Positions 3,675 through 45,743 of a stretch of DNA of 64,000 bases are shown piece by piece (position 1 is the stretch's first letter; each line of letters opens with the position of its first letter). The notes beneath the pieces were generated by a model. The model had not been told where the DNA came from. It saw only the letters and a list, made by a program, of their open reading frames with translations, and did no database searches. Made by a program: the position numbers and the translations under genes. This DNA is from Alternaria dauci (Eukaryota > Ascomycota > Dothideomycetes > Pleosporales > Pleosporaceae), in the NCBI RefSeq assembly GCF_042100115.1, contig NC_091279.1:930001-994000 (forward strand). Reading direction: 5' to 3'.

Positions 3675-5473
3675 CTATCCGGCGCGGCACATCCGACCGT
3701 CGGTCTGAACAGTCCAAGCCTCGCTACCGACACCAACCGTAGCGTAGAACAGACCAGAGGGATCCCATTTCTTCTTGATCTTCAACAAATTGCCGTAGTT
3801 CTCTCCCCAGAATGTATCAGCAAAGTTTGGTTGACGAAAGTCAGCCTCGTTCACATATGACCCACTACCCGGTGTCGCAGCCTCGACAAGAGGAACGATT
3901 TCGTTTGTCATCTTGTCCTGGACTGCAAACGCTTCCGACCACGGAGCTGTAAAGTTCCACGGAAGTGTCAATGTCGCATGTACGATTGCCTTGCGCCAGG
4001 CTGGGTGGACTGAAGTCGTCTTCTGCGAGCCAAAAGACTTTACATCTGTCCCGACTCCGATCCAAGTCACTCCCTTTTCCACGACAGCCTTCCAGGTCTC
4101 GGTGATGTTGCCGACGACGCTCCGCGGAATCAATCGGGTACCGTACTGGGCGATACCTACTTGGATGTTGCCGAGAGGAAGAGGGCCAAAATATTTGTCG
4201 TAGTGCTCATAGTACGTGTCGAACTCACTGTACTCAACAGTATACTTGACGCCTTTGGAGTCCAGCCTAGCAACGAAAGGCGCGAGCATGGCCTTGACCT
4301 CGACCTCCGTCTTGTTGTAGGCGTTTAGTGGGGAGATCATGAAGAAGGAGGATGTGAAGTAATGGACGACCATTGCTCCGGCATCTACCATGGCTGGCAA
4401 CTCCTCGTGAAATGCTTGGATAGCGTCGTAAAACACATCCTGAGCATTGTCCGTTGTGAAAAACGATAGCGAAGCACCACCGAAAACAGCCTCCTTGTGG
4501 GCCTTGACAGTCATACCAACCACGACACCGTACGTGCTGCCACCCCCGCCGTTGAGAGCCCAGTACAGATCGGCATTTTCCTTAGGGCTCGCATTAACAA
4601 GCTTTCCGCTAGCAGTTACGACTTCCCAGTTTAGGACGTTGTCCGCAGCAAGACCAAACCTGGTACTAATGGCCGAGTGCCCGCCACCCTGTGTGTAACC
4701 GCCAGCGACTCCGACTGTAGGGCACTCGCCTCCAACCACAACCAGGCCCTGGTCACGGGAAGCAGCCATGAGCTCAAATCCTTGAACACCGGCACCAATC
4801 TTGAAAGCTGGGCCCTTGTACCCTGAGCCGTTGTATGCCGGGACATGGGTAATGTCCTTTAGATGATGTGTCCACACCGCTAGTGAGCCCGCGCCGGTGG
4901 AACGACCGAGATAGTCTAAACGTAAGCGTACGAAATCAGTATATGTCTCACACACAGTTTTTACAGAGACACTTACCATGGCCCGTGTTGCGAATTACAA
5001 GACGGATATTCTTCGATGCAGCGAATGCGATTGCTTTCTGAACGTCTGCAGGTCCAGAGGCATTGACGGCATAACGAACGTAGTTGCCAAGTTCACATGG
5101 GCGGTCTCGAGGCTGAAAGGGATCGCAGCTCTGGTTGGCGAAGAAAGGTGCCATCACAGATGAGGACGATTCATAACTAGCTGTCTGTAAGTATGCCATT
5201 TTGAATGCATACGATTGATACATACTGGATCTTCTCGTACTGCCACTGACTCTTCAGGCTTTCACACGTCGCGTTGTCAAAAGTCGAACCGTGACAGGGT
5301 GCGCCCAGAGGTACGGTAGCCACCAATCGCCCGCTTACTGTCATGTTCAAGCTGTTCCAGTCTGATTGAGAAGGCCATGACTTGTCTCCCGGGAACGACT
5401 TGCATTGATTTGAGGTTGGTTTGGTGGCAGAAACGACGCTAAGAAGCGCGAGAATGAAGACGAAAGAACGCAT
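3675..5473 (-). CDS. Secreted FAD-linked oxidase, berberine-bridge (BBE) family, bicovalent FAD
   Basis: This is a flavin oxidoreductase of the FAD_binding_4 plus BBE fold. Such enzymes oxidise sugars, alcohols or secondary-metabolite precursors with O2; the substrate cannot be read from sequence. Exons (minus) are 5473-5226, 5176-4977 and 4915-3675, giving 562 residues. The ATG at 5473 is chosen because it opens a signal peptide (MRSFVFILALLSVVSA); an upstream in-frame ATG would mask it. Both covalent flavin ligands are present: His149 in RNTGHD (the Asp codon is split by intron 2) and Cys214 in GGECPTVG. The C-terminal BBE segment ends with NYGNLLKIKKKWDPSGLFY. Several N-glycosylation sites fit secretion. 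Intron 1 (5225-5177) is ordinary, but intron 2 (4976-4916) belongs to the repeated intron family described separately. No pathway genes lie next to it. Confidence 0.93.
4916..4976 (-). repeat. Introner-like intron, copy A (FAD oxidase intron 2)
   Basis: This is a 61-nt spliceosomal intron, GTAAGT...TTTAG. Read in the gene sense it carries ACTG, then GTGAGACA, then CTGATTT, at the same offsets as copies B, C and D in unrelated genes. The CTGAT lies where the branch site is expected. Length and layout match copy B (also 61 nt). Confidence 0.75.
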
Positions 5474-6545
5474 GACAAGGGCCCTGGGAGAGGAAAATTC
5501 TGGCGACCTGAAGAACATTGACCTGTAAGACATACGAATTAATATAAAGAGAAATTCAGGCGCCTTGCATGCGGCACGCTTAATGGTGGCAACAAGGTTA
5601 GAGTAGCTGTGGGACTACAGATCTAGCCTCCGGTGAGATGGACCGTCCCGGTACCGTGCACTACCCTACGACCGCCACGACTAATTTCCTTCGATCCTTT
5701 TCGTCGACATGAAGTAATCACGAAGTCAGAAGCTTACATGATCTGTAGGTGGTCGATACGAACAGTCGCTTTGTCAATCTGGACACACTGCTAACAGATG
5801 AACATTAACTCTTCAGAATTACTCTGCTGGCGTGGTACGGCGTAACTGCCATGGATGCGAACAATCGGGAATTGGGGCCTGCATTAACCAACAGGGATCT
5901 TTTCAAGCTTTCCTCTATCGAGACACATCCGATGCAACCGACCACTCGGTGATGCGATAAAATCGAACACCTCACATTAAGCTATGTAAGGGGGCGGCAT
6001 TCGGTTTACCTCATCGCCGAGTGGACTATTTCACCGCAAGGGCTGGTCGGCGGCTCTCCAGACAATCTGCAATCGTCCCATCTTGTATTTCCGGACCCTT
6101 GAAATTACGGGTTATACCACCGAAGAGTGCCGAAAACTATTCCCGTCGCAGTTACCAATATGCTATGATATAATGGTCTAGCTCAGACGAGAAGGTGGTG
6201 TCTCGTATAGGCCGATGCTTGAGCTGCTCTGCAACCATGTGCATTAGCTGCTAGCCTGCTATAACTTCGGAGAATACTGGGGGCACTCGCACGTTTCATC
6301 TCGCGAGAGACTTTATTCTTATCTCGACCAAGGCATCCCTTCCTGGCCAGTACATGATGAACAGGGTAAAGTTGATGCTAACCCTACACCGGTTTCGACC
6401 TTGTTGGCGACCAATACGCCGGGTACGTTCGGAACAACGCAAGTATTAGCTTCTAAGGCCTAGTAAGAATGATGGTATTCTTGCGATGGCAATGCGAAAT
6501 TTCTACAACAACTCGAGCGAAAATCACCACGGATAGGTCGGAGCA
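5474..6545. other. Intergenic 1.07 kb between divergent genes, holding a foldback element
   Basis: This is the shared upstream region of the FAD oxidase (minus) and the rhodopsin-domain gene (plus). It holds one 81-83 bp inverted-repeat element, listed separately. I see no other feature. Confidence 0.6.
5942..6024. mobile_element. MITE-like foldback element, copy 1
   Basis: This is an 83-bp sequence with near-perfect terminal inverted repeats: CCACTCGGTGATG at the left end and CATCGCCGAGTGG at the right, with imperfect pairing continuing inward for about 30 bp per arm. It shares termini, length and an inner CGAACA/ATTCG pair with the element at 10997-11079. Taken as CACTCGG...CCGAGTG (5943-6023), it is flanked by GAC on each side, a possible 3-bp target duplication. 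It has no coding capacity. Confidence 0.55.
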
Positions 6546-7967
6546 ATGGGTTGGACCTACAATACTTCAGATGATGCTGCCAACGACGGACCATATATCA
6601 CTGCTATCGCAATTGTCTTCACAGCCTTGTCGCTTTCGGCCCTGTCCCTTCGTTTTTACGTGCGTGGCTTCATGATTAAGGCAGTTGGGGCTGGTACGTA
6701 CTGTGATAGAGGATACGCTTTCGATACATGATTGACGATCGTTGCTAGACGACTGGATATTGATCGTGACTTGGGTCAGCAGCTATACTCTTTGCTGTAG
6801 CTTTGGGACTGACAATCTTACAGATAGCGTCCTGCGGCTTCGCTGTTGTGACTATCATCCGTACGTCGATTGCACGGGCTGCCGCGACACTGCGACTGAC
6901 TTCATGGTATCAGAAACTAAATGGGGCCTTGGACTAAAACATCTGGAGGACATGCCTATCCAGAATCTGTACAACTTCGGACTCGTAAGTACCACAAATT
7001 CAAGTGGAGAAGGCTCGTTCCTGACCAAACTAGATACAGTACATGGGTGCACCATTGTGAGACGAGGCATACGATACGATATCGATCCACCTAGCTGACA
7101 CCCACAGCTACATAACTAGTATACTCGGCTTCAAACTCAGTTTACTGTTGACGTATCTAAGAATCATGCCAAAGGGCACTTCGCGGAGCGCGACCATCAC
7201 TGTGATAGTCACATGCATACTCTTTCATCTTTGCTTTCTGATCGTCCAGACAAACCTTTGCCAACCGGTAAGTCCTAGTTCTTTCTGATCCATAGCGCTT
7301 TGCTGACCCGGCCGAGGCCGCGAAACAATGGGATCCTTCTATCACCTGGGGTCAGTGTCTGCCAGCCGTCCCCTTCTACACCAGCATGGCATCTTTGACG
7401 ATTTCATTCGATATTATAGTGTAGGTACATCACTAGCAACTGTCGGTAGAAGCTTACTCCAACAGCATGTTCCTGCCGTTCCCCGTCCTCCTCAAAAGCC
7501 ACATCCAGAAGCGGAAGAAATTCGCCTTACTCGGCCTCCTCGCTCTGGGCACCTTCATCACGATTATTCAAGTCCTACGCATCCGAACCATTCGAAACCT
7601 AGCCAACTATCTCGATTCAGCCAGTCTAATCATGTGGTCGACTATAGAAAATAATCTGGGAATTATCGTCGCCTCAATACCGACATTGACACCTCTCTTC
7701 AAGTACTTTGTCGAGAAGACACAAAAGAGCTCAAACGGCAATTCTGCAACGCGATCGCGGTCTCTATACGCTTTGAAGTCGAGACGCACCACGAGGCAAG
7801 GTTCCGTCCCGCTAGGCAGTGGTGTTCATGAGGCCAGGCATGATTCTTGGCCTTTTGAGGGTGGGAGCGAGGAGTTTATGGTGGGAGATATTGCTGCTAT
7901 AACAAAGAAAACGGAATTCACTATTTCATCTTATGTCCGTGAAGAGTCGGACGGGTCGGACAAGTAG
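6546..7967 (+). CDS. Rhodopsin-domain (SAT4-like) seven-helix membrane protein
   Basis: This is an integral membrane protein of the fungal rhodopsin-like domain family, common in filamentous ascomycetes and found in PTH11-like receptors and SAT4-type proteins. The ligand or role is unknown. Eight exons fit one frame: 6546-6693, 6749-6774, 6824-6860, 6914-6984, 7040-7056, 7108-7267, 7317-7420 and 7466-7967, giving 354 residues. Family landmarks appear only after splicing: DDWILIVTW, the QTKWGLG loop, NLYNFGL, LNLCQP-like TNLCQP followed by AKQWDPSITWGQC, and IIVASIPTLTPLFKYF at the last helix. The tail is Ser/Arg-rich and cytosolic. Exon 5 is only 17 nt. Some donors are weak (GTCAGC at 6775), so exon edges there deserve transcript support. 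The neighbours give no functional hint. Confidence 0.88.
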
Positions 7968-8975
7968 TCATCTTCCATCGCGGATAAGATATGAAAGATG
8001 TTATGATTCAGGTATTCCTTTAGCACTTATCATATATTTAGTGTTTATCCGACGAGATTATTCATATCTAAGTTGACCTCGGTTTGCCTTATCAATTGTG
8101 AAGGTGTCTCAGCATACCGAAGAGATAACCTTAAACGATGAACCATACTACCCTGCGGAGCCATTCCATGGAAGGCTGCATTACACGACAAATCAACAAA
8201 AGTGAGCGTCATGTCCGATGCAACCAACACCAAGGGGAACTAGAGTATGTTTGATTTGACGATGACAAGATAGCGCATGTGTTGATGGTTTGTAAGGCAT
8301 CATATAGGGTAAGATGGTCAGATTCTCCGGAAGTTTATTTGCACCTCGTCAGCGCTTTCCGGCATGAAGACATCTATTTCTAGACAATGCATCTGACACT
8401 CTTATTATTCATTTTCCCGTGTACGATCACCCATCTGGCAAACGCATGCCTGACGTGCATGAGGATGTTCACTAATGTGACATATCCACTCGAGTTGGCA
8501 ACTCTCCTTCACATTAGGCGAGAAGAGAATCAAGGGTTTGAAGGTTGAAAGATTATGTCCGAGTACTGAGCGGCGATCGTTGTAGGTGGCGAGTTGATAG
8601 ATTTCTTCGTAAATGTGGAAGATCAGTTCCGAATACTCTCAAAGCGGCTAAAGGATCACATGGCACGGAAATTATGTAACAGATAGGCAAACAGTGATTG
8701 AACATGGTTAAATACTACAGCAGATTGGGTATGTAGACGCCAGAACTTATCCAAAAATGTAGCATTGGTGACTCCTGTAAAGCAAACTCCGAAACGTATA
8801 GGCGAAGTTAGATGGCGGTCTGAATTACCTGACAGACGGGACAGCAAAGGCGTTCATATGACGAATAACCCGGTCATGTCAATGGCATAATCGGAGGCTC
8901 TGGAGATATTGGTACTACGCCGTTACCAGCATTCACAGCTGAGTACCCCTCCTTGATCTGAAAGAGTCAGTACTG
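7968..8975. other. Intergenic, 1.0 kb
   Basis: This lies between convergent genes and holds their 3' UTRs. I see no coding, RNA or repeat signal. Confidence 0.55.
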
Positions 8976-10014
8976 TCATGTCGTTGTTTGAAGTTCTTCT
9001 CGTACCAAGTCGAAATGGGTTGTGGTCCGGAAAGCGCCACCTCCTGTTTCAGGTCCGTCGCTCCAGTATAGGCGCCTCAACCAAGCGTGGAGACGTGGAT
9101 AGTCTTTACGTATCATTTTCTTGTTACATCTGAAGAAAGGGTAGTATGCCACGTCGAAGCGAATGATTGTTGTGTATAGTCGAATGTCGGCCTCGGAAAT
9201 GTATTGCCCGAAAAAGTAAGGGTAGTGCTTAGGCTGCGAGAGATGGTCTTCGAGACGATCAAGCGACTCGAAAAGCTTGCTGACATGTTCGTCGTAGGAC
9301 GCCTGTGAAGTTGCAAAACCAACTTTATACACGCCGTTGTTAACAGCGTCGTGTACCCATGAAAGCAGCGACTCCATCTCTGTTTGGATGTGCGCAGGTC
9401 TGAAACCAGCCACTCCTTTGTTAATCTCACGACGTTCTGGGGGTAGAAGAGCATCGAAGGCATCGAACAACATGCGATGGATCTCGGCGGCATCGTTGTT
9501 GACAGCGGTACCTGAGCACTGTCAGTCTACAGGCTATCACGCTAATCCTCGGGTGAGCCTTTTTACCATTCATTGTATCCCAAAGCAAAGGAATCGTGAT
9601 TCTGCCGTTGTAGTTTGGGTCTGCCCTCAAATAGATCTCTTTTAACCACTTCGCACCATACACGGGGTCTCTCTCTGGCCCACTACGCCCAGAGAAGAAC
9701 CAGCCATGCGATGCATCTCGTGCATCGACCTCTACCAAGTCCAAGACATCTTGCAACCCCTTCAGTGCGAAAACAATGGCGGCTCGGTGTGCCCAGGGAC
9801 AGGTGTAGTTGATGTAAAGTACGTATCGGCCCTTTTCGGCAGGAAAGCGCCCAGAAGGTATCCTATGTCGGAACTGCGAAGGCATGTGTGGCTTCCCTCG
9901 GCTCTGAATATCGACAGGGCTGCGATGTGGTGGCTTTGCAAAAGAACGTCAGTAAGCGTGCGCGATAAGAGTGCACTGGAAGGAAAAACCTACTCGAACC
10001 GTTGTAACCGCCAT
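8976..10014 (-). CDS. Xi-class glutathione S-transferase / glutathionyl-hydroquinone reductase
   Basis: This is a GST of the omega-like/Xi type. Family members reduce glutathionyl-hydroquinones and related conjugates with GSH, in the cytosol. Exons (minus) are 10014-9994, 9933-9567 and 9511-8976, giving 307 residues, close to the usual 310-340. The catalytic Cys is in YTCPWAHR (about residue 52), which sets this class apart from Ser/Tyr GSTs. The thioredoxin-fold half ends at GRITIPLLWD. The all-helical half carries FDALLPPERRE, YFFGQYISEADIRLYTTIIRFD and the WLRRLYW segment of the family. The first exon is 21 nt (MAVTTVR); it is chosen because the next in-frame ATG would shorten the N-terminal lead of the fold. 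The first intron donor is GTAGGT. No substrate-specific neighbours are visible. Confidence 0.9.
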
Positions 10015-10658
10015 AGCCGGTGGCTTTATTATTCTTGACTGAAGCTAAGCAGACCAACTCTGAAACATAACCCTCCTGCAGACGGGCAGCCCATGACGTT
10101 TTCTTAAAAAGCTGGGCCTTTTTCCCCTAGCATGTTGTGATTACAAAACAACAGACTGTTGACAAGGGTGACATCTGATTAGTAGGGGCTACGCGTGGGT
10201 GTCAGCGCCCAAGGATTACAAAATGCGCCAAGTAAGCTGCCGACTGGGAGCAACCGCTTTCAACAGCGATATAGTGATTGTGCTATATGTGATCGATAGT
10301 TCCTGCTCAACAGCGAGACAGACTCATTGCAGATGCGGTAGACAGATGGCGTGAAGGGTGAGCACGTGCATTCCGCCCCCGCCGAAGAGCCGAGGCTCGC
10401 TAAGACCAGAGTTTTAGTTCCGCTCTGTCGCACGGCATTCGTTATCCTTTTTCAGTCCCGATCCGTTCTGTTGCTCCAACCCGCGTCGCAAAGCATACAG
10501 CCGCATGGCTTCCTGTAATGCCCTTGTTGTTGTCCTATCAAAGTGATTCTACTGGCGGATAGGGCCGTCGGTGACGTGGCCGAGATGATTGGCGCCCTCT
10601 CTTAGTCCCATTGAATACCACAGCCTTGGACGGATTACCTGGTTTGCGGTCCTATAAG

Positions 10659-10740
10659 AAATGGAACAACGGCAAACCCAATGTCAAGAGATGGAACAAC
10701 AACAATCCCGATTTTGAAGAGATGGAACAACGGCAATTCC
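10659..10740. repeat. Tandem repeat, three units of about 30 bp
   Basis: Three successive units each begin GATGGAACAAC or a close variant (starts near 10660, 10690 and 10721) and then diverge. Copy number is low and no coding role is evident. Confidence 0.7.
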
Positions 10741-10996
10741 GACTTTCTGTTACTACATTTTTGATAAAAATTTACCATAAGGCTTCAAGAGTCACATGGT
10801 TGGTATTCTGTCTGTACAACGATCAGTAGCCACGCTTCATGAAGTTGCCAAAGAGCCAAGTATGCGATTTGCCATCACAAGCTTGTTCGCAAGACGCACA
10901 CCGTCGGAAGAATTGATCGCACTCCCGCCCGCTTGTGTCATTCAGCACATATGTTTAACTTCCTGGCATCGCCTGTACTCCCGTCACAAGATAGGA

Positions 10997-11079
10997 TCAC
11001 TCGGTGATGGGAAAAACCCGAACATTTGTGGCCCATGCTTTGGCCAGTCGGTATTCGCTTTTTCCCCATCACCGAGTGG
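10997..11079. mobile_element. MITE-like foldback element, copy 2
   Basis: This 83-bp element has ends TCACTCGGTGATGGG and CCCCATCACCGAGTGG, which pair as near-perfect inverted repeats with arms of about 20-30 bp. Taken as CACTCGG...CCGAGTG (10998-11078), it is directly flanked by GGAT on both sides, a good candidate 4-bp target-site duplication. Termini and length match the element at 5942; the centres differ. Confidence 0.6.
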
Positions 11080-13275
11080 GATCAACAGACCACCGTGTAG
11101 GAAGCGGGGTATGCCGGTGCGATGCGAGGGAGCACATCTGACAGTACAGTCTATACGGCATCAGGCTGAAGGACGTGCCCATTGCTCATGGTCGCGCCCT
11201 CTAAACACTTGCCAAGAGAAATTCTACGAGTCACCGTGCAAGCCGGGCTTTTTTACTCGGTCTATGCAACGCCTGCCAAACCTTGGGAGTGAGACGGTTC
11301 AGTATGGTTGGTAAGTAAATGTCAGACGCTGCAACAACATGGGCCATTCGGTATGGATGCCCATGTCAAGCAGGACATGCAGACAATTACGCACGATGAC
11401 ATTGACACCAGATGAGACCAAAGTTCCACGCTGCTGCGTTCATGGAGCTGTAGGCTTTCTGAGCTCATACACAGGGTGCCATGCGAAAGGATATGTTATT
11501 GCGCATATTCCACACTTGCTCTCTTGCTTCTGGGTCTTGGTCGCAGTTCCACAGGAAACTTGGGCGTTTCGGGACCGACTTTTGCGAATGCAGATTATGT
11601 ATACAAAATACTGATTGCATTACCATTAGAGCAAAATTCTCTCGATGACGTCCACTTTCTCCGCAGGTATGAGTATACGGCGCCGATCCGATTACTCATA
11701 ACGCACACATCCAAGCTATGTGGCCCACTTTAATAGGAACGCCAATTACCATCTGGAAACGAATTCAGGCTGTCTCATTCGCTAACGCATACGCGCGTAA
11801 CGATAGTGGATGCCCAAGTACGAAATACGCTTGACTCTGCGCTTGATGCTATTGTCATCAATAACATAAGCAATCTCGTATGACATGAATTCAGTTCTTC
11901 AATCAATCTGCGTAAACATCGCGCGAATACGACACAAAGCGCGATTCATGCAAGATCGGTCGAGTACAAGGTTGTACACCGGCTACACGGTATACAGTAG
12001 AGGCTGCAGGCATCCAGAGGGAATTCCATGAGTTCAACCATGACACAAACACGCACACAAACATGTTCGTTTGCTTGCTCGTTGTGCGACATGTGTTGTT
12101 CTCGCCGCTAGTTCAAGCCAGTTTTAAGAGTCTACTAAGGCAACACGGCGTCTCCAGCATCCGGACTAATCAAATCAAATCGCATCTCAGCTTCCACCAA
12201 AGTACTCGAATCAAACGTTTCCGGAGATCTCTCCGATTCTTTGTTTAGTCATCGAAAAGAGTTTCAGCAGCTCGAGTGACGCCCCCTACATGGATGCTGG
12301 TGCGACGTTTCTGAATATCCTGCGGTGTCATTGGGGAGCAGTCTGCCCGCAGACCGTTGCAACCCATATACTTGAACATGGCTTGGAGGTGTCCGTATTA
12401 CGGAGAGCAATTCAAGTCTCGAGCCCCCCACGCCTGGATACTACACTAGTGTAATCATGTTTAGATCTGCACGGCAATATAGAACGAGTACCACCGACTG
12501 GTAAAATCGGCTTACGGACACAAGAGATAATATCAGTATCGTAAGCTCAAAGTCGTCTTAACATGTAAGCAGACATGCACTCTCCACTACGGGAGGGTCT
12601 TGTGTTGATTAGGTTGGCCTTTCATAATCAAACGATTTATGCCTGATCATTGTAAGTTGGTTTGAACACTCATGTTGACGCTTACCCTCTTCACACTCGA
12701 CAGAACATGACCACTGTCAAACTTTTGTGGAAGCTTGTGGTTCTGACGGCTATATTGGCAAACTAATGAGCAGTTTGCTGGGCTTGATTGTTTACTAAAC
12801 TATCACCCGAGGCTCTTACTCCCACCAGCATACATTTAACTTCCCCAGGTTTTCTCCTCGATGCGTGTATTCGTAATCCACTATTGGTCATTCTGGGACT
12901 TTTATCCTTGTTCGGTATGATCGATAGGACAGAACGAGAATGGTGCGATCGACTGAGACTTGTGTTGATCCATATATAAGACATGCTCACTGGCTCTGGT
13001 TTCCAATCTGGTCAACAGTCCAAGGTACAGGACATGCGGACTCACTGAAGTGGGCGTTTGCGGGCAGCGCGACAAAATACCAAAACGTCGATTTGAAGTT
13101 AATCTTTCTTGAGCCATATATTATCATATATGGTTCTTGGGCTATGGTGGCGATGATGATACGGTAGTATTGAGTCGCTCACTTTCGTCTATGGGTCATA
13201 GCCGTACCATGTATGGTATGAGTGTACCATGCAACTGCCTCGCGATGCCTTCGTGAGTCAGAGGTGAGGATAGCA

Positions 13276-13763
13276 TATATATGCTGAACGTCGATTTGAC
13301 CAAAGTCACGACTGCGGGTCACAGTTGTGGGGCCTGGAAGCCATGTCGACGGCGCACCGTGATGAGAGAGTGAAGAGAATCATGTTGTTTAACATTGCGA
13401 TATTCCAGGATGACAGGAGGTACCTACTCAAGGAGATCAAGGTGCCAATCGTGTATCTGGTTGGAGGGCTGAAGTGTATGTGTTTTAATACGGTAAGTCT
13501 GCCTTTCTTGCGTCTTGGTCCTGATGTGATCCGATATCCACGCTGAAAGTACGATAGTCGGCTAAAGACTTTGCGCTGCTGAACGCGGAGCTTCCTAAAC
13601 TCAGGGCCAACCCGGAACTTTCGCCGCTACGAATGGTAGCAAACATGCTAAAGCAGCTGTGGCATACTTGGTATGGCACTGGAGAGGTACTGCGAGTGCT
13701 CAGGCGTACATACTTGACGGCGGTCTAGAAAAGGACAGCTGGATTGAAGAGCATGCCAACTAG
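13276..13763 (+). pseudogene. Broken alpha/beta-hydrolase-like gene, C-terminal remnant
   Basis: Three consecutive segments in shifting frames read as one protein family. The first is NVDLTKVTTAGHSCG, with a GxSxG-like nucleophile elbow. The frame is then lost in the G run at 13326-13332 (one G short of a Gly-Gly reading). The second is GLEAMSTAHRDERVKR, IMLFNIAIFQDD and IKVPIVYLVGG. It is followed by an intron (13496-13558, GTAAGT...ATAG) and AKDFALLNAELPKL. A second break near 13620 shifts frame again to AATNGSKHAKAAVAYLVWHWRG and a clean stop at 13761-13763. I recognise this as a secreted alpha/beta-hydrolase-like fungal family; the N-terminal half is missing or unreadable upstream. At least two frame-breaking lesions plus a lost 5' half make it a pseudogene. 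A recent sequencing error could explain the first lesion but not all of this. Confidence 0.65.
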
Positions 13764-14686
13764 TGTCGTGTCGCTGTTTGTGTGCACCGAGATATGTGTG
13801 GCGATGAAGCATGCTGGCTCACCACAAATAATGGAAAGAGATTCATGCGCAGATGACGTGGGAGTGAGACCATTCTCCAAAATGATACCGGTGAGCAATT
13901 CTGTCGTGGTGTAATTTTCGAGCTGTAGTGCAAGGGCTGGGCGAAGGCTGTGTGCTATAGAGCTGAATGAGGAAACACCAAGCCACACCGTCCAGGCAAG
14001 GCAGAATCGGCAACTGAAGCCTCGCAAAGCCCAAAGGTATCGAGGTGAAATGCTGGAGGGTACTTGGTTATGAAAGCGATATCTTAACTTCGTTCGCATG
14101 TGGCAGTGCGCGCACAATGGCTGTTCAGGCGGCTCGGAGCCAACGTCATGGTCATGGCCATGACCCAGCAACCGTCGGCCAGGAACGCGCTCCCCTAGGC
14201 TCTGAACCGCCTAAGTTTGTTGCGACCCGTTCTCGACCCTCTATTAATAACCACCAACGACGCTGCAGTCTGGTTGCCGGGTTAGGCACAAACCCTGCTG
14301 AAGCGAAGAGCGGGCTGCGCGGCGGGGACGCGACTGGGTGGTTTACAGCGTCGGGATCCACCACGCAGTGAGGCTGAGACTCGAAAGGTGTCTGACATAA
14401 CACTCTCCATCCTTTCCCGTGTTGCTCGACGAATCTACGACATTCTTTGGCAGCTTTGACGTCTCCTTGCGCACACGACTCGACGACGACGACGCTGTTT
14501 CTGTTTGTTGTTGGTGGGCATTTTGCATACCGCAGAGAGCAGACTCGGAGGCACCCAAGCCCACCGTATTGACGTATTCGCAGGGCTGAGTGAGCTGTCT
14601 GTTTACGCTCACCTTTCCCGGCTTTCCGCGCCCTTCCACACATACCAGGCCTTTGAGGGACCTGGACATACACAAAGACAAACAAT
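13764..14686. other. Intergenic, 0.9 kb
   Basis: This is the upstream region of the MARVEL-like gene. Frames on the minus strand here (for example 13725-14171 and 14152-14961) overlap that gene or lack any domain. No feature is supported. Confidence 0.5.
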
Positions 14687-33509: not shown

Positions 33510-33884
33510 GAAAGGTCTGGGCGTCTTGTATGCCGGATACAAGACTTCAACTCTCGAGCCAGAAGCTCGTCGGATGTAAGGATGCACGAGTCGTAAGGAA
33601 AAAAAGCTTGGTGTGAATCAGAAATGAACTTTGACTTCAGAATTCCGTGAGCGGTAGGGTCCGGAGCTGCTTGAGGGAGTATTGCTTACATACTCCTCTG
33701 TTTTTTTTTTTACATGTGTCAAAATATCTGAGCGACAGATTCCATCTTCGCAACTTTGCATCTCAACTCACTTTGTGTTTTGAGTTGTCCTTGAAGAGAA
33801 ATGAACAGCAAAACATATATGTATCTATACTGTGTACATCTCGGGTATTTGGATGAATCACATCTCCATCTTGCGACTTTGACA
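33510..33884. other. Convergent 3' region, 375 bp
   Basis: These are the 3' UTRs of PAM17 and the nitronate monooxygenase. There is a T-tract near 33700. No gene is present. Confidence 0.5.
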
Positions 33885-35043: not shown

Positions 35044-35617
35044 ATTTTTCTTCTTTTTGTTCTTCCAATCGAACTCAGCTAAATATGTCTTTACGTATAC
35101 TTCTTGTTATTCTTCACTAAATCGCGACTTCCAGTGACCTCGGCGGAATCTCGAATCCACAGCTCTTTGCTTGTTTGTTCTCCTGCTCACGTAGACAGTA
35201 TGATAGATCTGTATGAATTAGCAATTACAGGAATCGGTGCGTTACAGCGAAACTGACAATATATGAGTCAAGATAATGGTCGGATGATCATGCGTGTGCC
35301 CTAGGTTCCGCTAGGCCTACCTTGAGGTTTCGACATCTCCTCGGCTATATATCAGCATGGAACCAAGTCGGCTCACTCGGCAATCAGCTCGTACAACATG
35401 TTACACATTTTCGCACATGTAAAATTATTATGTTGTCTTCATTACATCTTATCTCCACATGCCCCAAGGTATTAACGATAATACTAATCCCAAAGTCTAT
35501 GTCCGCATGAACAGAACCAAAACCTCATGCCTGAAAAGCCCCAATATCTACATCGGCCCATGGTCAAGACCGAAAGTGCGTCGTTAAAAGGCGAAAGAAG
35601 AGAGGTCATTGCAGCTT
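35044..35617. other. Intergenic, 574 bp
   Basis: This is the upstream region of the nitronate monooxygenase and the 3' side of CYP51. No feature is supported. Confidence 0.5.
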
Positions 35618-37290
<1,673 letters not shown>

Positions 37291-37841
37291 GGTGGGGGAC
37301 GAGAAGTAACGACAGAAGTGAAGGCGTGGTTGAAGGGCAATGTTGACGGGGAACGCGTCCTCAATAAATTTCCCACCGGTCGAGGGCGCGCATGGACCAG
37401 GCCATCCAATCATACAAGTGAGTCGCCTTTGCCGTACAGGGCGGTTTCCGACTGGACTGTCGGTGTCGACGTCTTGGCAGGGACCGGCATGCGGACACTA
37501 GCGCTTCCGCCGCGACAAGGAGAGAATGGCTGGTGGCACCACTGACAGGCCATGCGGAGCAGATCGCTGTCATCGTACACTGTGTCGTGCCATTGGCCCA
37601 AGAGTACATCACCTCATCTGGAGCCCAGAACAGACATTGTCATGGTGCCAAATTTACTCTTTACTACGCTATGCTCTGTAAAAAGACCCAGACAGCAGGA
37701 TGTGTGTGCTTGCCGTTAACCCACTATTTTACACATCCCACCTGTACTGCTGTACAACTCCTATTAATCATACCAACTTGACTCCATAAGACGCCAGACG
37801 CTCCGCTAGAATGAAACATTGCACTATGCCCCAATGCTACC
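37291..37841. promoter_or_regulatory. CYP51 upstream region, 551 bp
   Basis: This lies between the CYP51 start and the stop of the kinase gene, both on the minus strand, so it holds the CYP51 promoter and the kinase 3' end. I see no tandem duplication or inserted repeat of the kind linked with CYP51 overexpression, and no recognisable sterol-response element that I can support. Confidence 0.5.
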
Positions 37842-40066
37842 CTAGTTGACCTTTCCTTTGCTCTGCGCAGATGCAAGGCTCTGGTCTGTCGCATAGCGGG
37901 AGCCGTCCTCCTCTTCCGAGTACAGCGTCTGATCGCCTTTGCCGCCCATCTCGATAAACTCCTCGGGCTTTCGCTGATCGGCAGGTCTTACCTCTGCAAC
38001 GCCGTGAGTCCTGCCATTCATTTTTGTGCCGTTCTCCACTCCGTTCTTCTCGTACACCTTTACCGGGTCTTGGCCTTCGGCGCCTTTGATAACGCGAGTT
38101 ACCTTGATGTCGTTGATGCTGCTGAGCATGGTGCGTTCCCGCTGCACCTTGCGCTTGGAGAAATCAAGCTTGGAGATGGCGCCCGTAAGACCATCTGTGC
38201 TGTCGTTGACGTTGATCCTGCCTTGTGTAGTCCACGGGTGCTCCAGGCATTCATCAATCGTGATTCGCTGCTCAACATCGACGGTAAGCATGCGGTCGAT
38301 AAGATCTAGCGCAGGGTCGCCAACAGAGTCCCAGTACGGCGATGGGTAATCGAAACGGCCCATCTTGATCTGCTGTGAGAGAGTGTATGGGTTCTCGGGA
38401 CTGTACAGCTCATCTGAGAATGGAGGAAAGCCGCACAGGCAGATGTACAGCACAACTCCCAATGACCAAACATCGACAGCCTTGGTGTAGCGTCGATAGT
38501 TTGAGTTTTCCAGTATCTCAGGCGCAACATCTAAGAAACGTTAGCACACCATCGTATACCGTAGAAAAAGGCGACATACATGATGGAGTTCCACATAGCG
38601 TAGTCGTAAACGATTCCTCGCCAATGATTTTGGCAAGACCGAAATCAGCCAACTTGATAGACAGTTCCTTGTCTGTGAGCAGAATGTTCTCGGGCTTGAT
38701 GTCTCTATGAACAATGTTGCGTTCATGCTGGTATCTATTAGCAAGGAACCACACAAGAGTCTGAAGACTTACCAGGTACTTAACCGCTTGGAACAGCTGC
38801 ACAAAGACCTTTCGCGCCTCGTCCTCAGTCAACTTTTGTTTCATGACGATCCAGTTGAAGAGCTCGCCCTCGGTGGCCAATTCAAGAACCAGGTAGACGC
38901 CGTCATCTTCATCAAAGGTGTCTTTGAGACAGAGCAGCGCTGGGTGGCTGACGCTCATGAGCACAGCAATTTCCTGCTGCAGACCCTCGACCTTTGACTT
39001 CTCTCCAGGACCAGTGCGCTTCTCGAATTTCTTGACTGCATACCGTACGCCTGTCGACTTCTCCGCAGCGAGATATACCGAAGCGAAATGCCCTTTGCCT
39101 AATTGCTCCTGCATGGTGTATTGCTGTCGGAACCGGTGGGTGTTGCGTTTCAAAGGGTATCTGAAGACGTAGCGGGCCTGGTCCAAGATGGCAATTTCGT
39201 CGCCCTCGCGCAGCTCGCGTCGTTTGTTTCGTCCGACAAAAGTATCGTTGACAAATGTGCCGTTGCCAGACAAGTCTTCAACCACGGCAACGGTATCACC
39301 GCCCTTCTTCTCCATGAAAAACAGACAGTGACGGTTCGAGACGGTCGGTGAGTTGAGAACTCGATCTGTGGCATCGTCAGAGGAGGCGCTTCTTTGGGTG
39401 GTTATATTAGCGCAGCTTACCGCACTCTCTGTGACGACCGATGAGGTAACCACCCGAGGGAACACCTCGGTCTTGCTTCTCATTCTCGTACTTTTCCTCT
39501 TGGCCTTTGTACTCGTCCTTTTTTACATGCGCTTTGCCGTCAATCTTGCCAACGAGCGTGCTAGGCACAGGGCAGGCCTCTCGCCTGCGCAAGACAAGGA
39601 CATCTTCGGCCTGGCCTTCCATGGGCACCAGGTAGCCCCAGACCTGTTCGTCCTCCTCATCTTCTACCGCGTACGTTCGGCTCTCGGGCGGGTAGACGAA
39701 CTGGGAAAAGGGCTGGGTGTCGGATGGGGGCGAGCTAATTGCAGCTTTTGCCTGACTTGACTTGGCAGGTGGGGGACTCTGTGTGCCTTCTTTGTAGCCT
39801 TCCGAGGCGTCTCCAGTAGATTCTTTGTGGGTAACGGGCGAGGGCAACGGTCCCTGCTTAAGACGGCCATTGGGGGGCGGCGACAGGCGCGAGTGGCGGG
39901 TTCTCTTGGGCTCGGCTTCTTCGCCCTGGGAATACTACAACAATTGAAGCGTCAGCGCCGGTCCTCTTGCACATCCACGGCCTCGTGCGACTGGGCGACG
40001 GGCGACGGGCGACGGGCGACATACGCGATTTCGCTTGAGCTGACTTTTCTCAGTCTCCGCCGGCAT
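37842..40066 (-). CDS. RAD53: FHA-domain checkpoint kinase, Rad53/Cds1/Chk2 type
   Basis: This is a DNA-damage and replication-stress checkpoint Ser/Thr kinase of the nucleus. Five exons (minus) are 40066-40025, 39934-39421, 39365-38773, 38727-38580 and 38530-37842, giving 661 residues. The N-terminus carries SQ and TP sites (MPAETEKSQLK, EGTQSPPPAKSSQ), likely phosphorylated by Tel1/Mec1-type kinases. The FHA domain spans about 155-255: GRHRECD, SNRHC, GNGTFVN. The kinase domain spans about 268-530: GKGHFASVY, VKKF Lys, HRDIKPEN (Asp392), DFGLAK (Asp411), CGTPSYVAPEIL (read only after the last intron). There is a single FHA, as in Cds1/Chk2; budding-yeast Rad53 has two. Intron 1 holds a GGGCGAC tandem repeat. 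It is divergent from ATG10. Confidence 0.93.
39994..40021. repeat. GGGCGAC 7-bp tandem repeat in RAD53 intron 1
   Basis: Four near-perfect copies of a 7-bp GGGCGAC unit (plus-strand reading) sit inside the 90-nt first intron, directly after the donor on the minus strand. Confidence 0.85.
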
Positions 40067-40426
40067 CTTGAACACGAGCGGATAGCAGTGGAGTCGAGAC
40101 GGCGACGGGTCAATGCGGGCGCGTGTATCTCCAGTGTCTAGGCAGGCAGCATAGTGGTGCGAACGATAGAAACAAGTAGCAAGGGCGGAGAGTCTGGGCC
40201 GCTCAGCTGCCTCCAAGTTTAGACGACGTTCCAGGCAGCCAGGCCCTGGAGCCGGGGAAGTCGCGTTGGACCCCCTGCCGATTTGCGCGTGGCGAGCCCG
40301 CGGCCCTGCTTTGAGTGGCCCGGAGCAGCCCACCGGCTGGCTACACGCGCCCCTACGTGCTGTTTCTTCCTTCTGCTCAGCGGAGAGCCATCTCGACGAG
40401 GATTTGCCAAAAAAGAAAAAGAGAAT
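40067..40426. promoter_or_regulatory. Bidirectional promoter region RAD53/ATG10, 360 bp
   Basis: The two start codons face away from each other 360 bp apart, so both leaders and any shared regulation lie here. Sequence is GC-rich with no named site. Confidence 0.5.
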
Positions 40427-41151
40427 ATGCTCTCCAGTTTCCCCCATCTCGATGAAACCGACTTTGAACGCGCCTGTGATGGGTTGCAGCGACGCTTCCA
40501 GCTGAAGGGTAGCGTGCAGGAAGGGTGGCTATCCGTGGAGAAGATCCACCGAAATGGGACCGTATATCTCAACATTACTGCGCATCTGCCGCGCCCTGCA
40601 AGTATACCAGCGCAGCAGGATCGAGACTCTACTGAACTGGATGAGGTAGTAGAGCACGACGAGGTGGGTGGATGCCCCAGATCTGCCGACAAGAGCTCAA
40701 TTTCAGGTAGGAAGCGCTCGACACCACCGTAGTACCCCAGGCGGTTGTAGACTACGATCTTGTCTTGTCACAAGTCTATCGCGTGCCTGTGCTGTACATC
40801 AGCATCCGTGACCCCCAGCACCGGTATCCTCCAACCATGACTACCTTGTACGAGCATCTGGTCCCGCCGCAGTTCAAGGCACAGACTGAGAACATTGGTG
40901 TCATTGGAGGCATCACCATTACTGTGAGACAAGCGACTGCAGGCACGGTATCAAACTGATCTTCGTAGGATCACCCAGCCACCAACAGACCTGTCTTCTT
41001 CATCCATCCGTGTCAGACGGCCGGCGTCATGGAAGCCTCTCTTGACAGAAACATTACAGCCGACGAGTATCTGTTGATGTGGATAGGAGCAATGGGAAAG
41101 GCCGTTGGCTTGAACGTACCTTTGCAACTAGCAAGACCAAACGATGCTTGA
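40427..41151 (+). CDS. ATG10: ATG10, E2-like enzyme for the Atg12-Atg5 conjugation
   Basis: This is an autophagy E2-like enzyme that transfers Atg12 from Atg7 to Atg5. Exons 40427-40663, 40711-40923 and 40969-41151 encode 210 residues. The splice to EALDTTVVPQAVVDYDLVLSQVYRVPVLYIS uses the TAG at 40710, after a CAGGTAG tract; the nearer CAG would leave a stop in frame. The active-site segment is PVFFIHPCQTAG (Cys165, the family HPC motif), followed by YLLMWIGAMGKAVGLNVP. Length and layout fit Atg10 rather than Atg3 (no long flexible insert, HPCQT). Its stop is only 44 bp from the convergent mS29 stop, so 3' ends may overlap. Confidence 0.92.
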
Positions 41152-41195
41152 CATTGCTACATTTGCTTTACATATCGTCATACAGTATAGTACAC

Positions 41196-42678
41196 CTACA
41201 ACCGCATTCGGACACTGGCCTTCTCTAGCTCGCCAATGTTCCCCATGCCCGCCAAGCTCCACTTCTCCGTTACGAAGCCCTCGTTGACTTGGTGTCGCAA
41301 CATGCCGCTTTCAGCATAGTACTCCATGATCGACCGTGCCTCTTCCTTGGTCAGCCCGCCAACGTTGATGATGTCGAGTTCCCTCGAGTCACTGTGGAGA
41401 TCCTTGAGAGCCTCCATGACGCGTACATCTACACTCTTGTACGGATTCCATGGCGGCAGCTTGCCAGCTCCCTTTTGGCGGGCTTCCGCTGCTTCGATGC
41501 AGTACTCCATCGCTGGCGAGGCGGGTGCGTTGGATCGTGATGTTGCGCCGAGCACCACGCCGCCGTTGGGTAGTTTTCTTTGGCCTGAAAGATGATCGAC
41601 GAAATGGCGAACAAGAGTAAGGTCGTGGGCGTGGATGGGCTTCACTTCCGCAGACATGTACTCAGAGTGGCGCATGATGTGCGACAGACCGTCGACGGCA
41701 AGAAGAATGGGTGGACAACCGGGTAGAGACAGCTCATTCCATAGCGCGACAAAGACGGGCCATGATGCCTCGGGGTTGGCCATGCCAAGCGCGGCCAGCT
41801 CTTTGAGTGTAGCACCGGCAGGAAGTGGGAGAGGTAGCTCGGGCTGCGTGCTAAGTTTCGTCGCCGTGAGAAATGCTCCATTCGACTGGAGAATTTGCTG
41901 GAGAAGATTCGCCGTGTATGTGTCTTGGGTATACTGCATTGGTTCAGAGTTTGGGAGTGGCGCATATTCTGTGTGAGCATTGACAAGTTCTTGGGCTGGA
42001 AAATTGTCAGTGCAATCCCTCTTGCCTGGCGGGGCAATTCGTACCTTCTGGGAGGTTGATCACAAACCAGTCCCGCAGAAAACCCATAGTCAGACCCTGA
42101 AGTACCAATGTGCTCTTCCCGCTCATCCTTTGGCCAGACAAGATGCGTCGTATTGTCTTCTTGGAGTCCTCCGCCTCCTTGAACAGTCTCGCGAGTTCGA
42201 TCGCCTCCTTCCGCATCAACACTGCCGGCCGTCTAAACAGACTCCATCCCTGGGTCGTCTTGAACGCCTCGACGGCTCTCAGCGCATCCACTACGTTCTC
42301 TTGCGGCAGCCCCATGACCTTGCCCTCATTCTGCTCGCTGAGAACATTTTCCTTGCTGAGGTCCTGAAGCGAGGACACTTCTAGTGCGTTGTCGTTGCTT
42401 AGAACAATGCGTTTGCGCTGGGCTTTCCGCTCTCCCTGTGCTGGTCGTTTGCCGGTGTCGCCGGCTGCGGCTCCCCTGCCCTTCTTGGTGTTCAGAGACT
42501 TGACACCCTTCTTCGGGGCGGCGGTCATGCCCTTCTTCTTGGCTACTACAGCATAGCGGGCGGTCGACGTAGAAAAGCAGGCAGTCTGTGGGCGTAGCAC
42601 GCGCGGGGCGATGCAGCTGTGGGCGCCGGCATCAAGTGACAGTTGAGCGAGGCTGCGGAGACATGCTGCGGGCGGCAT
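41196..42678 (-). CDS. RSM23: Mitochondrial ribosomal small-subunit protein mS29 (DAP3/Rsm23)
   Basis: This is a GTP-binding protein of the mitochondrial small ribosomal subunit. Exons (minus) are 42678-42045 and 41995-41196, giving 477 residues. The N-terminus is Arg/Ala/Ser-rich with ACFSTSTARYA, a likely matrix-targeting and cleavage region, and a Lys-rich linker follows. GQRMSGKST (residues 182-190) is the P-loop. Other family blocks are ALRAVEAFKTTQGWSLFRRPAVLMRKEA, NAHTEYAPLPNSE, the Walker B-like PPILLAVDGLSHIM, and the C-terminal GGLTKEEARSIMEYYAESGML. The frame restored by removing 42044-41996 reads FVINLPEAQELVNAH. It is divergent from RRS1. Confidence 0.94.
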
Positions 42679-42856
42679 GACGGGTGATTGAGGCGCTGGC
42701 CCTCCGCAATGGGCGAATTGGAGATGCTAGAGACGAATTCTGTGATGGTCACAGCCTCGGAGGTCCGCCGCTCGTGCACGGACTCGAAATTTATTCTGAA
42801 CTTTTGGCAGGCGCGCAAAGTGAAATTCTACAAAAAACCTCCCCAACTACGCAAAT
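42679..42856. promoter_or_regulatory. Bidirectional promoter mS29/RRS1, 178 bp
   Basis: Head-to-head starts only 178 bp apart join a mitoribosomal gene with a cytosolic ribosome-assembly gene. It is AT-richer near the RRS1 side (GAAATTTATTC, AAAAAACC). No specific factor site is claimed. Confidence 0.6.
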
Positions 42857-43606
42857 ATGTCAGACACAGAAATGGACGGCGGCGTCGCGCTAGGCGGTGT
42901 TTCACCCACACATTCTCACCTCGTCGACGAAATCAACGGAGGTGCCATGGACGTCCATGCCAACGGCGCAGCTTCCGTCGCAGACTCGACCGTCTCGAGC
43001 CGACTGTACGTCGCATACTTGCTTTGTCCTCGACTTCACCTTTTGCTGACATAACAAAGCCCCGTCGTCGTGAACAAGCCTACGCCTTTTACCTTTGACC
43101 TGGGAAACCTGCTCGCAAACGACCCAAACCCAGTCCCTGCCAGCGCCGACGAAGCTACCCTCACTGCAACTGCCCGCGATGCCGCACAGGCCCTCATCAA
43201 CCAGCTTCTCTCTACCTGCGAAATCAAGTCAAACTCAGAGGGCGTACACCTCGTCCTCCCCGCGCCAACCACACCTCTGCCCCGCGAGAAGCCCATCCCT
43301 GCAGCTGCCGAGAAGACCAAATGGGAGAAGTTTGCGGCCAAGAAGGGTATCAAGGATAAGAAGCGCGACGGCAAGCTTGTATACGACGAGGCTTCTGGCG
43401 AGTGGGTACCCAAATGGGGTTACAAGGGCAAGAACAAGGAGGGTGAGAACGACTGGCTGGTTGAGGTGGACGAGAAGAAGGAAGCCAAGACAGGCACCGC
43501 CCACGACGCGAGGGCGGACAGTCGGAAAGAGCGAAAAGAGAGGATCAGGCGCAACGAGAGGAAAGAACGGGCGAACAGCATCAAGTCTCGAAAGACTGGT
43601 GCGTAA
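42857..43606 (+). CDS. RRS1: RRS1, ribosome biogenesis regulator
   Basis: This is a nucleolar factor that, with Rpf2, recruits 5S RNP to pre-60S particles. Exons 42857-43005 and 43060-43606 encode 231 residues. The core NKPTPFTFDLGNLLANDPNP is the family signature. It is followed by LPAPTTPLPREKPIPAAAEKTKWEKFAAKKGIKDKKR, LVYDEASGEWVPKWGYKGKNKE and a Lys/Arg-rich tail with coiled-coil character. The intron is a short GTACGT...CAAAG type with CTGAC as the branch site. Convergent neighbour: the MFS carrier, 234 bp away. Confidence 0.96.
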
Positions 43607-43839
43607 GCTCGAGTCCTTGACAGTCGCGTAAGCGGGGAAGACATTTAAAAACGACTTGCATTGGGCGGCGTTACTATTACGACATGTATTCGACTTTATG
43701 GGCGCACGCACTAAAAGCTTGCGAACTTGCACTTCTATCGACGGTTTCAGAGGCTGCAGCTCCGTCTCAGATACCACCAACAGCCGACCAGCCGAATATA
43801 CTATTTCTGCACTTGTACCCAAATTCCATCTTCAATATC

Positions 43840-45743
43840 TCAAAGAGTATACAGAAAATCTGGCCTCTTATCTCCCATCTCCTCAATCTCTTTCTCACTC
43901 TTGCCCTCAGTCCAAACGTCCCTCGCTCCTTGCCTCCTCTTCTTGTTTTCCCATGCGAGCAGGAACCGCGTCACAATACTGCCGCCCAGCAGCCACAACG
44001 TCAGATACGCCAACACTACGCCATGACCCAGGAAGTAGCGCGGTTTGTCCCTACTGCGATAGATGTTCGATGAAACGACGCCGTTGATGTTGCCCCAGCC
44101 GATAACAAACCCAAGCGTGACACCGCGCTTGTACACGCCTTCGACATTGTTGGCGGCCCAGGAAATCGTGTTCGCTATCGTTGCTAGAGAGGGGTATCAG
44201 AATGCAAGAAGCCAGTGTTGTTGCTAGATGGGGGAATACTTACGATAGATGCCAATAGCTCCCAAGAATGTACCGGCGTACTGCACGTTCGGGTTTCCAG
44301 AACCAAGAAGCATGCCGAAACCCGCAATCCCAAAGAGCGAAATTACCATGTTGCAGTAACCTCTTTGTTGCGTGCGATCGGCAATATAACCGACCAACAC
44401 CGTGACCACAGCTGCAACCGCATATGGTGGCACAGAAAGCAGATTCGCGGTTGTAGACGTATAGCCCATGCCGGCAAGAATGGTGGGTAGGAAGAGACTA
44501 AAGGCATAGAGAGACCCGTCCGCTCCCATGTAGATGATGCTGAACATGAGCGTTTTCCAGTCCTTGACTGATTGCCAGAAGTATTTCATTTGGAAATCTT
44601 CGTGCGCAGCCGAGGCCTGTTTATCGGCGCGCAGACGGCGGAGGACACGAGCTCGGTCATCGGGAGACAAGAATGTGGCTTCGGCAGGGAAGTCGTGAAC
44701 CATCCAGTAACTCGCTATTCCGACCAGAATGGTTGCAAGACCTTCGAGGATCTGGTCGGTACTGTTAGTAACATGTTGACACAATGAGGAGAGGAATATA
44801 TCCATTACTTACGAAGATCCATGCCCAACCTGGCTTGCCCCCTACGCCACCCATTTGCGCGATTCCGGCTGCTAGCAGTCCTCCAAAACTGCCGGCGAGT
44901 GCTGCAGCCGAGAAGAAAATAGCAGCCCGAATTCCAAATTCTGAGCGTTTGTACCTGTGAGGTGCGTCGAAGTCAGTCCATGTCTCACATGCAGTTCGGA
45001 CAAGGAAATTTCTCACCAGCAACTCAAATAGTAGTTCACGCCGGGAAAGAGTCCTGCAGAAGTGAAAATCCCAAGTCAGTGTATGTCTCAAATGTATTTT
45101 ACACAGTCTCGACCTACCTGCTTCCGCACAGCCAAGCCACCACCGCTACAAACATGTCGTCAGCCAACCCAATCCGAAAATCACACCACTGAGAGTAGAA
45201 TTACTCACTGCAGTCATCAAGCCGGCATAGTTGTGCACCAGGCCCATGCATGTCATGCAAATCCCCCACCAAATCATAATCAGAGGTAGGAAGATGCTAG
45301 GTCGTAACTTCTTCAAGAGCACGTTTGTAAGTGGCTCGAACACTGAGTAACTGATGAAGAAGATGGTCAGACTGGCGTTGTATTGGCCGTTGGTCATGTT
45401 GAGGTCTTCTTGCAGACCGTCGACTTTGGCATTGCCAATGTTTGTGCGGTCCAAGAAGGAGATTAGATAGAGGAAGGAGAGCCATGGGATTAGGCGAAAG
45501 TCGAGCTTGCGGAGGAGTGCTTTGTCCTGTGACGATTGTGTTAGCTGACTCATGAAGTTGACTTGAAGGTTAGACAAGTAAAGGACGTACGTGTGCAGCG
45601 CACTCTTCTTCACTGAGACCAGCGTCAGGATTAGGCAGGTTTTCGATTGTATGAACATGTTTTGCCGTTTCGACATGCTCTTCGCCTATTGTCTTTTCTT
45701 CCTCGCTCGACCTATCGATCGGACGTTCTGCTGCCGAGGCCAT
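43840..45743 (-). CDS. MFS transporter, Dal5/TNA1-type anion:cation symporter
   Basis: This is a plasma-membrane carrier of the ACS family (allantoate, nicotinate, vitamin or dipeptide-type substrates). Seven exons (minus) are 45743-45591, 45526-45209, 45145-45118, 45053-45017, 44954-44813, 44751-44244 and 44183-43840, giving 509 residues with twelve hydrophobic helices. Family marks are RLIPWLSFLYLISFLDRTNIGNAKVDGL, RWWLGCAEAGLFPGVNYYLSCWYKRSE (spread over three exons, the middle ones 28 and 37 nt), IANTISWAANNVEGVYKRGVTLG and the C-terminal RDKPRYFLGHG. Introns 3 and 4 are members of the repeated introner-like family, separated only by the 37-nt exon. The start is the ATG at 45743; an upstream in-frame Met six codons away is less favoured. 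The substrate is unknown. Confidence 0.9.
44955..45016 (-). repeat. Introner-like intron, copy C (MFS intron 4)
   Basis: This is a 62-nt intron, GTGAGA...TCACAG. The gene-sense core AACTGCATGTGAGACATG contains a perfect CATGT-GAG-ACATG hairpin, followed by ACTGACTT. Outer arms GTCCGAA and TTCGAC can also pair. It is the best-formed member of the four. Confidence 0.8.
45054..45117 (-). repeat. Introner-like intron, copy D (MFS intron 3)
   Basis: This is a 64-nt intron, GTAGGT...CTGCAG. It shows CATTTGAGACATAC and then CTGACTT, in the same order as copies A to C but with more divergence upstream. GTGTA and TACAC flank the TGAGACA block as short inverted repeats. Confidence 0.65.

Follow-up and report, generated by a model that had tools for sequence, protein, structure and literature searches.

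Near-matching introns in unrelated genes of Alternaria dauci: an introner family probably multiplied by copying of whole introns

The origin of new spliceosomal introns is a long-standing question, and it is posed in a concrete form by a stretch of 64,000 nucleotides of the fungus Alternaria dauci (RefSeq assembly GCF_042100115.1, contig NC_091279.1, positions 930001-994000; here the window, located on the contig denoted C8), where four introns in three unrelated genes closely resemble each other. A preliminary description of the window took these introns, here A to D, for introner-like elements (ILEs). All four lie on the minus strand, namely, A (4976-4916, 61 nt, phase 1) in a gene for an FAD-binding oxidase, B (19679-19619, 61 nt, phase 1) in a gene for an azgA-like purine permease, and C (45016-44955, 62 nt, phase 2) and D (45117-45054, 64 nt, phase 1) as neighbours in one gene for a carrier of the major facilitator superfamily (MFS), with a 37-nt exon between them. 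Re-read from the sequence, the positions, lengths and strand were as described, and all four introns start with GT and end with AG. In-silico excision of A to D yields uninterrupted proteins in all three host genes, with the junctions (marked by a slash) NTGH/DYLGRS for A, where the codon of the D residue is interrupted, TNP/TMWLG for B, EAG/LFPG for D and LSCW/YKR for C. The spliced proteins match the Pfam families FAD_binding_4, Xan_ur_permease and MFS_1, respectively, the last with 31.7 bits, slightly below the cut-off of 33.4, for a query that was a 102-aa piece.

Are A to D related by descent, or are they ordinary ancestral introns that are alike through common splicing signals? Part of the similarity is of the latter kind, given that GTAAGT, CTGAY and YAG are general splicing consensus; however, the common middle, TGTACGAANTGCATGTGAGACAT, lies outside the splicing signals. 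The shared blocks pointed out in the preliminary description go well beyond chance: a hidden Markov model (HMM) made from 65 copies from the rest of the genome, and none from the window, matches exactly A to D (E = 3.8e-15, 8.3e-14, 1e-12 and 1.1e-10), compared to E = 0.81 for the fifth-best match in the window and E = 2.9 for the best match in the reversed window. E-values of about 1e-10 or lower, obtained with no window sequence in the training set, speak against mere convergence on splicing signals. The claim that ordinary introns do not show these blocks held as well: two introns of the MFS gene used as controls, 45208-45146 and 44812-44752, both on the minus strand (boundaries set by eye, ends rechecked), are absent from the HMM matches. 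On the basis of their similarity to typed consensus introns, D falls into the first of two subfamilies and the other three fall into the second, A and B representing its short form. It appears virtually certain that A to D are members of one introner family.

The size of this family is apparent from a search of the entire genome (34.9 Mb, 10 contigs). The core motif TGAGACANNNNCTGAYTT is found exactly at 87 places (42 on the plus strand and 45 on the minus strand), with one mismatch or less at 279 places and with two or less at 791, compared to 1, 6 and 273 places, respectively, for the reversed control. The excess at two mismatches is about 520, and we estimate the family at some 500 copies; the dozens to hundreds of copies anticipated in the preliminary description are, by these counts, present. 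Set against the reversed controls, the copy counts effectively refute the view of A to D as ordinary ancestral introns, the probability of which we consider negligible. DNA searches with the subfamily consensus sequences reached at least 46 places beyond the 87 exact ones, for a joint tally of at least 133 distinct places: in the search with the first consensus, 31 of the best 40 of 57 candidates span query positions 1-64, with a top identity of 95%, and for the second consensus, the best 40 of 60 candidates were scored. In the viral and prokaryote collections, the core motif was found 0 times each. With regard to distribution, the contig ends are poor in copies, the outer 10% at either end holding 3 of the 87 exact copies (17.4 expected) and 5 of the 133 distinct places (26.6 expected), and contig C1 is enriched, with 30 of the 87 exact copies for 17.6 expected (chi-square p = 0.037 across all contigs).

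For comparison of the copies, we read all of the 87 exact places except C1:2162663, and of these 86, we kept the 77 that had a donor score exceeding 2 and were 55-66 nt long; 8 of these were taken out by hand as doubtful (L017, L031, L050, L053:1774, L055, L061, L069 and L070), leaving 69 aligned copies, and the subfamily alignments comprise 29 and 39 of them (L011:4578 excluded). In the alignment, the columns of TGAGACA and CTGAYTT are invariant by construction, because the seed motif selected the copies, and the L064 row of subfamily 2 has one surplus exon base at its end that enters the derived model, the distances and the folding rows. By eye, L044 and perhaps L039, L059 and L061, all among the excluded rows, resemble chance or decayed matches; the copy at L038:1492-1552 on the minus strand, with the donor GC (CAG/GCAAGT), is possibly a GC-AG introner of 61 nt.

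The copies are introns of mostly 61-65 nt, the commonest length being 64 nt. Subfamily 1 members are about 64 nt long and are characterized by GTAAGTTGTGACTGTACGAAATGCATGTGAGACATACACTGACTTCGTATCTTCACATCTGCAG, and those of subfamily 2 mostly span 61-65 nt, carry AACTGCATG in mid-intron and often end with TTAG or CTAG. Donor-side columns of the alignment (8, 9, 13, 14 and 24) are coupled to acceptor-side columns 53-65 by mutual information (69 copies; no shuffle control), which suggests that the whole intron is the copied unit. The Jukes-Cantor distance to the consensus averages 0.19 (0.05-0.34) in subfamily 1 and 0.27 (0.14-0.45) in subfamily 2, which suggests that the family is for the most part old and includes few young copies. 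Pairwise distances are slightly under the expectation for a star phylogeny (0.33 versus 0.37 and 0.45 versus 0.54 in subfamilies 1 and 2, respectively), and mean identity within the subfamilies is 75% and 70%.

Do these sequences behave as introns of the genes in which they are found? The frame test was applied to the 47 of the 69 aligned copies in which, on each side, one open frame is clearly the longest; it supersedes an earlier, crude test made with no control, in which 69 of 86 copies were open for at least 60 nt on both sides. The frames joined by splicing are concordant in 38 of the 47 testable copies (chance 1/3, p = 3e-11), and reading through the copy is possible in just one. Where testable, the copies lie in the sense of transcription, as expected of introns and as proposed at the outset, and the frames fit their presumed removal by splicing. 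Phases 0, 1 and 2 are represented by 14, 12 and 12 of the 38 concordant copies. In the exon flanks, G is found at position -1 in 47 of 69 copies and at position +1 in 33 of 69.

The flanks also bear on the manner of movement. Conceivably, introners move as non-autonomous DNA transposons, with splice sites carried along or co-opted, as they do in many algae and protists; most non-ascomycete introner families have target-site duplications (TSDs) or terminal inverted repeats (TIRs) (PMC9860276), and the subfamily 1 consensus in our case can fold end to end, with an energy of -16 kcal/mol. In the flank tests, however, no significant TSD of 2-7 nt was detected: words of 4, 5, 6 and 7 nt common to both flanks number 23, 5, 0 and 0 versus the expected 17.8, 4.2, 0.7 and 0.2 (p = 0.10 for 4 nt), and two tests of 4 nt at the junctions only come near significance (3 versus 1.0, p = 0.058, and 2 versus 0.5, p = 0.064). 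Pairing between the first and the last 14 nt of a copy is barely better than pairing between copies (-3.69 versus -3.49, with a standard deviation of 0.17) and yields no support for a TIR; moreover, the ends of the copies are the splice sites themselves. Movement as a DNA transposon therefore strikes us as unlikely.

A further feature of the family is the presence of several copies in one gene. A scan with the HMM of 248.5 kb around the seeds gave 25 further matches at E < 0.01, of which 22 are distinct (the L002 and L003 regions overlap), and the reversed control gave none; 20 of the 22 are on the strand of the seed, and about 3.6 further copies would be expected for a family of 500. Five pairs among the 87 exact copies are less than 1 kb apart, all on the same strand, compared to 0.19 expected under uniform placement. 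The extreme case is a gene for a class II fructose-bisphosphate aldolase with five introners within less than 900 bp (L002:1348-2208, i.e., C1:809857-810717); these are 57, 64, 55, 54 and 49 nt long, and two of the matches are weak (E = 0.003 and 0.0024), but once all five are removed, the protein and PDB 7rgn can be aligned across 297 aa with no gap. Elsewhere, two introners flank an exon of 10 nt (L008:1538-1547) or 11 nt (L050:1152-1162), in genes that, from characteristic motifs kept in the joined proteins, we take to encode a GH35-like protein and a C2H2 zinc-finger protein, respectively. Neighbouring copies may belong to different subfamilies, as is the case for C and D and, by eye, for two copies in L092, pairs that tandem duplication would not account for.

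Could an RNA structure be what is kept in these introns? The hairpins noticed at first are partly real: CATGT-GAG-ACATG in C and TGTAC/GTACA in B are present, whereas GTCCGAA/TTCGAC in C requires a bulge. The accompanying proposal that the outer arms differ between copies but still pair found no support as a conserved feature, given that in the hairpin drawn from these arms, standard pairs make up 76.8% of the cells compared to 77.3% in column shuffles, with no covariation above the shuffles. Nor do the copies fold better than shuffled sequences (mean z = 0.04 over 69 copies), and RNAalifold predicts no pairs in the alignment of the 69 copies. If selection kept these introns as selfish or regulatory RNA structures that work through the hairpin, one could point to the arms that pair in single copies, to the z of -1.46 for copy A (0.05, -0.09 and -0.30 for B, C and D, respectively), to the z of -1.9 for an earlier, typed consensus of subfamily 2, and to the drop in pairing to 20-52% of the cells when the hairpin arms are slid by 1-3 columns. 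The latter, however, is expected of a structure drawn from a consensus, and the majority consensus sequences have z of -1.08 and -0.84, their shuffles being equally or more stable in 15% and 20% of cases. It is also not clear that young copies fold better than old ones: for distance against z, subfamily 1 gives rho = 0.16 (p = 0.41) and subfamily 2 gives rho = -0.29 (p = 0.07), and for distance against raw folding energy, subfamily 1 gives rho = 0.34 (p = 0.07). We accordingly rejected structure as what defines the family, and selection for a structure appears very improbable.

Were the copies gained, or were they inherited and lost elsewhere? The respective sites are intronless in many paralogues, and the copies are therefore likely to be gained. 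In the MFS family, 39 of 62 matches are stop-free from residue 39 or before to residue 62 or beyond, a segment that spans the sites of C and D; in the FAD-oxidase family, 9 of 63 matches are stop-free from residue 9 or before to residue 112 or beyond; and one of the two azgA paralogues is intronless at the site of B. The paralogues of the window sites that were fetched, mainly those with matches broken at the sites, make up 14 loci (L078-L091) in which no sequence, ordinary introns included, matches the family (best E = 0.57 and 1.8), another point against shared ancestral introns. Yet some of these paralogues have ordinary introns 8 nt from A (L080), 2 nt from B (L078), 6 nt from C (L085) and 1 nt from D (L086), a proximity that favours both ancestral introns and the replacement of older introns in place by introner sequences, through intron conversion or slippage. 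Against replacement, a zero offset was never seen at A to D, many paralogues are intronless at the sites, and among the paralogues read or resolved, just one of five further sites picked beforehand (two in the GH35-like gene and three in a tyrosinase gene) has introns within 15 nt (11 nt away in L105 and 15 nt in L098). The exons of 10 and 11 nt between introners would be hard to account for in this way, and we consider replacement quite unlikely. As a separate observation, the MFS paralogues L085-L090 have, in residues 40-54 (EAGLFPG...CWYKR), ordinary introns at several slightly different positions, besides C and D.

The tyrosinase gene (L024) allows old and apparently new introns to be compared side by side. 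Its sole ordinary intron, of 67 nt, coincides with match breaks in six paralogues; among seven paralogues, it lies at the same nucleotide in four (L101/L108, L102, L105 and L107), is 5 nt off in L103 and is absent from L104 and L106. By contrast, at the sites of the three introners of this gene, exact-site introns number 0 of 6 (L098, L104-L108), 0 of 5 (L104-L108) and 0 of 4 (L099, L104, L105 and L107), which is difficult to reconcile with ancestral introns and is what one would predict if the introners had been added later, next to an intron already present. The paralogue L107 itself contains a decayed introner (L107:721-775, E = 1.8e-5; E = 0.0053 with the subfamily 1 model) elsewhere than the three of L024.

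Considering all these observations, the best explanation, to which we assign a probability of roughly 90%, appears to be a U2-type introner family that multiplied by whole-intron copying into exons of unrelated Alternaria genes. The initial interpretation of A to D as introners is supported by the hundreds of places across the genome, the concordant frames and the many paralogues that lack the intron. Sequence comparison shows that the copies are of common descent, that the whole intron is the unit, that there are two subfamilies and that, where testable, the orientation is sense; the copies end at splice sites, have no detectable TSD and in some genes are present several times. Under this scenario, short introns would be copied in full length, donor and acceptor included, into the exons of a large number of unrelated genes; since each copy brings its own donor, branch site and acceptor, a new copy would be spliced out at once and would do little harm. 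We take CTGAYTT for the branch site by its resemblance to known branch sites. It is slightly more likely than not that the copying involved RNA, most plausibly with the excised intron reverse-spliced into a transcript or an R-loop, followed by reverse transcription; this route fits best, by a modest preference, because the copies end at splice sites, are in the sense orientation where testable, show no detectable duplication, are copied as whole introns and inserted repeatedly into single genes.

Several points weigh against this explanation. The RNA intermediate is something that we infer rather than observe, and in this family we found no stable structure of the kind described for other fungal ILEs. 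No near-identical, recent pair was found among the 77 copies, the top pair being 96.9% identical. The frame tests are discordant in 9 of 47 cases, although two of the discordant introns, the second one of L008 and that of L024, are correct by inspection of the proteins, and the two junction tests of 4 nt are close to significance. Furthermore, gain was judged on paralogues within the same genome, and because unrelated ordinary introns of paralogues lie 1-8 nt from A to D, A to D may occupy long-standing intron positions and not previously uninterrupted exon.

Perhaps, insertion is aimed, via the transcripts of particular genes, at short exon stretches near the independent ordinary introns of paralogues. 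The five aldolase copies, the exons of 10-11 nt between copies and the separate decayed copy in the tyrosinase paralogue are in favour of this possibility, which we nevertheless regard as doubtful; such hot spots are a lead rather than a result, since all four window sites have an ordinary intron within 8 nt but only one of the five preselected sites has one nearby. If insertion were aimed in this fashion, a shared intron position would often stem from gain in parallel at a hot spot instead of inheritance.

Mobile introns that occur as repeated units have counterparts in other organisms. In the algal genus Micromonas, whose introner elements resemble the present copies in this respect, M. pusilla has families both with TSDs and TIRs and without them. 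In the literature searched, nothing was closer to our case than the Alternaria, Capnodiales and Hypoxylaceae systems discussed here. Introners have been published for Alternaria alternata, with a family 1 example at LPVP01000001.1:1639687-1639750 (GCA_001572055.1) that is 64 nt long (Gozashti et al. 2022, PMC9860276), and in that work, the ascomycete families are outliers lacking TSDs or TIRs, those of A. alternata apparently replicating by direct insertion. The A. dauci copies share with them the genus, the length of 64 nt, which is the commonest here, and the lack of TSDs and TIRs, so this kind of element is already known; the comparison with family 1 of A. alternata is one of length and description. 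The present case is a well-supported further case of introners in Alternaria, perhaps of the same family as those of A. alternata.

The ILEs of Fulvia fulva, Dothistroma septosporum, Zymoseptoria tritici and their relatives are likewise hundreds of similar introns in unrelated genes, with cases of two in one gene and with decay towards ordinary introns (Collemare et al. 2015, PMC4457414). The same authors describe the D. septosporum ILEs as decayed and report three ILEs located 1, 8 and 3 nt from ordinary intron positions, for which parallel gain was argued; the offsets of 8, 2, 6 and 1 nt at A to D are comparable. In contrast to F. fulva and Z. tritici, where pairs are 98-99% identical, the A. 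dauci copies are more diverged, and, unlike these ILEs, they have no detectable stable structure. For Capnodiales ILEs, a predicted stable secondary structure or internal symmetry has been described, and reverse splicing has been proposed for other fungal ILEs (PMC8469720). Similarly to our copies, the symmetrical sister stwintrons and introns of Hypoxylaceae are repeated, lack flanking duplications and function when on the coding strand (Fekete et al. 2021, PMC8469720); however, those elements are few and strongly symmetrical, with terminal inverted repeats, whereas symmetry in the A. dauci copies is not significant.

With an estimated 500 or so copies, which form two subfamilies graded in age, this genome of 10 contigs is well suited to the study of intron origin, and sequenced Alternaria relatives would make it possible to date insertions and to locate empty sites. 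Repeated insertion into single genes and the tiny exons also bear on the targeting of insertion and on intron recognition. As for the remainder of the window, ARAGORN found no tRNA and no Rfam family reached its gathering score there. Protein similarity places the host in Alternaria, though close to none of the species named among the matches: for a 990-aa protein of the window, with 47 proteins returned, its own included, the best named relatives are from A. alternata (73% identity) and A. panax (72%).

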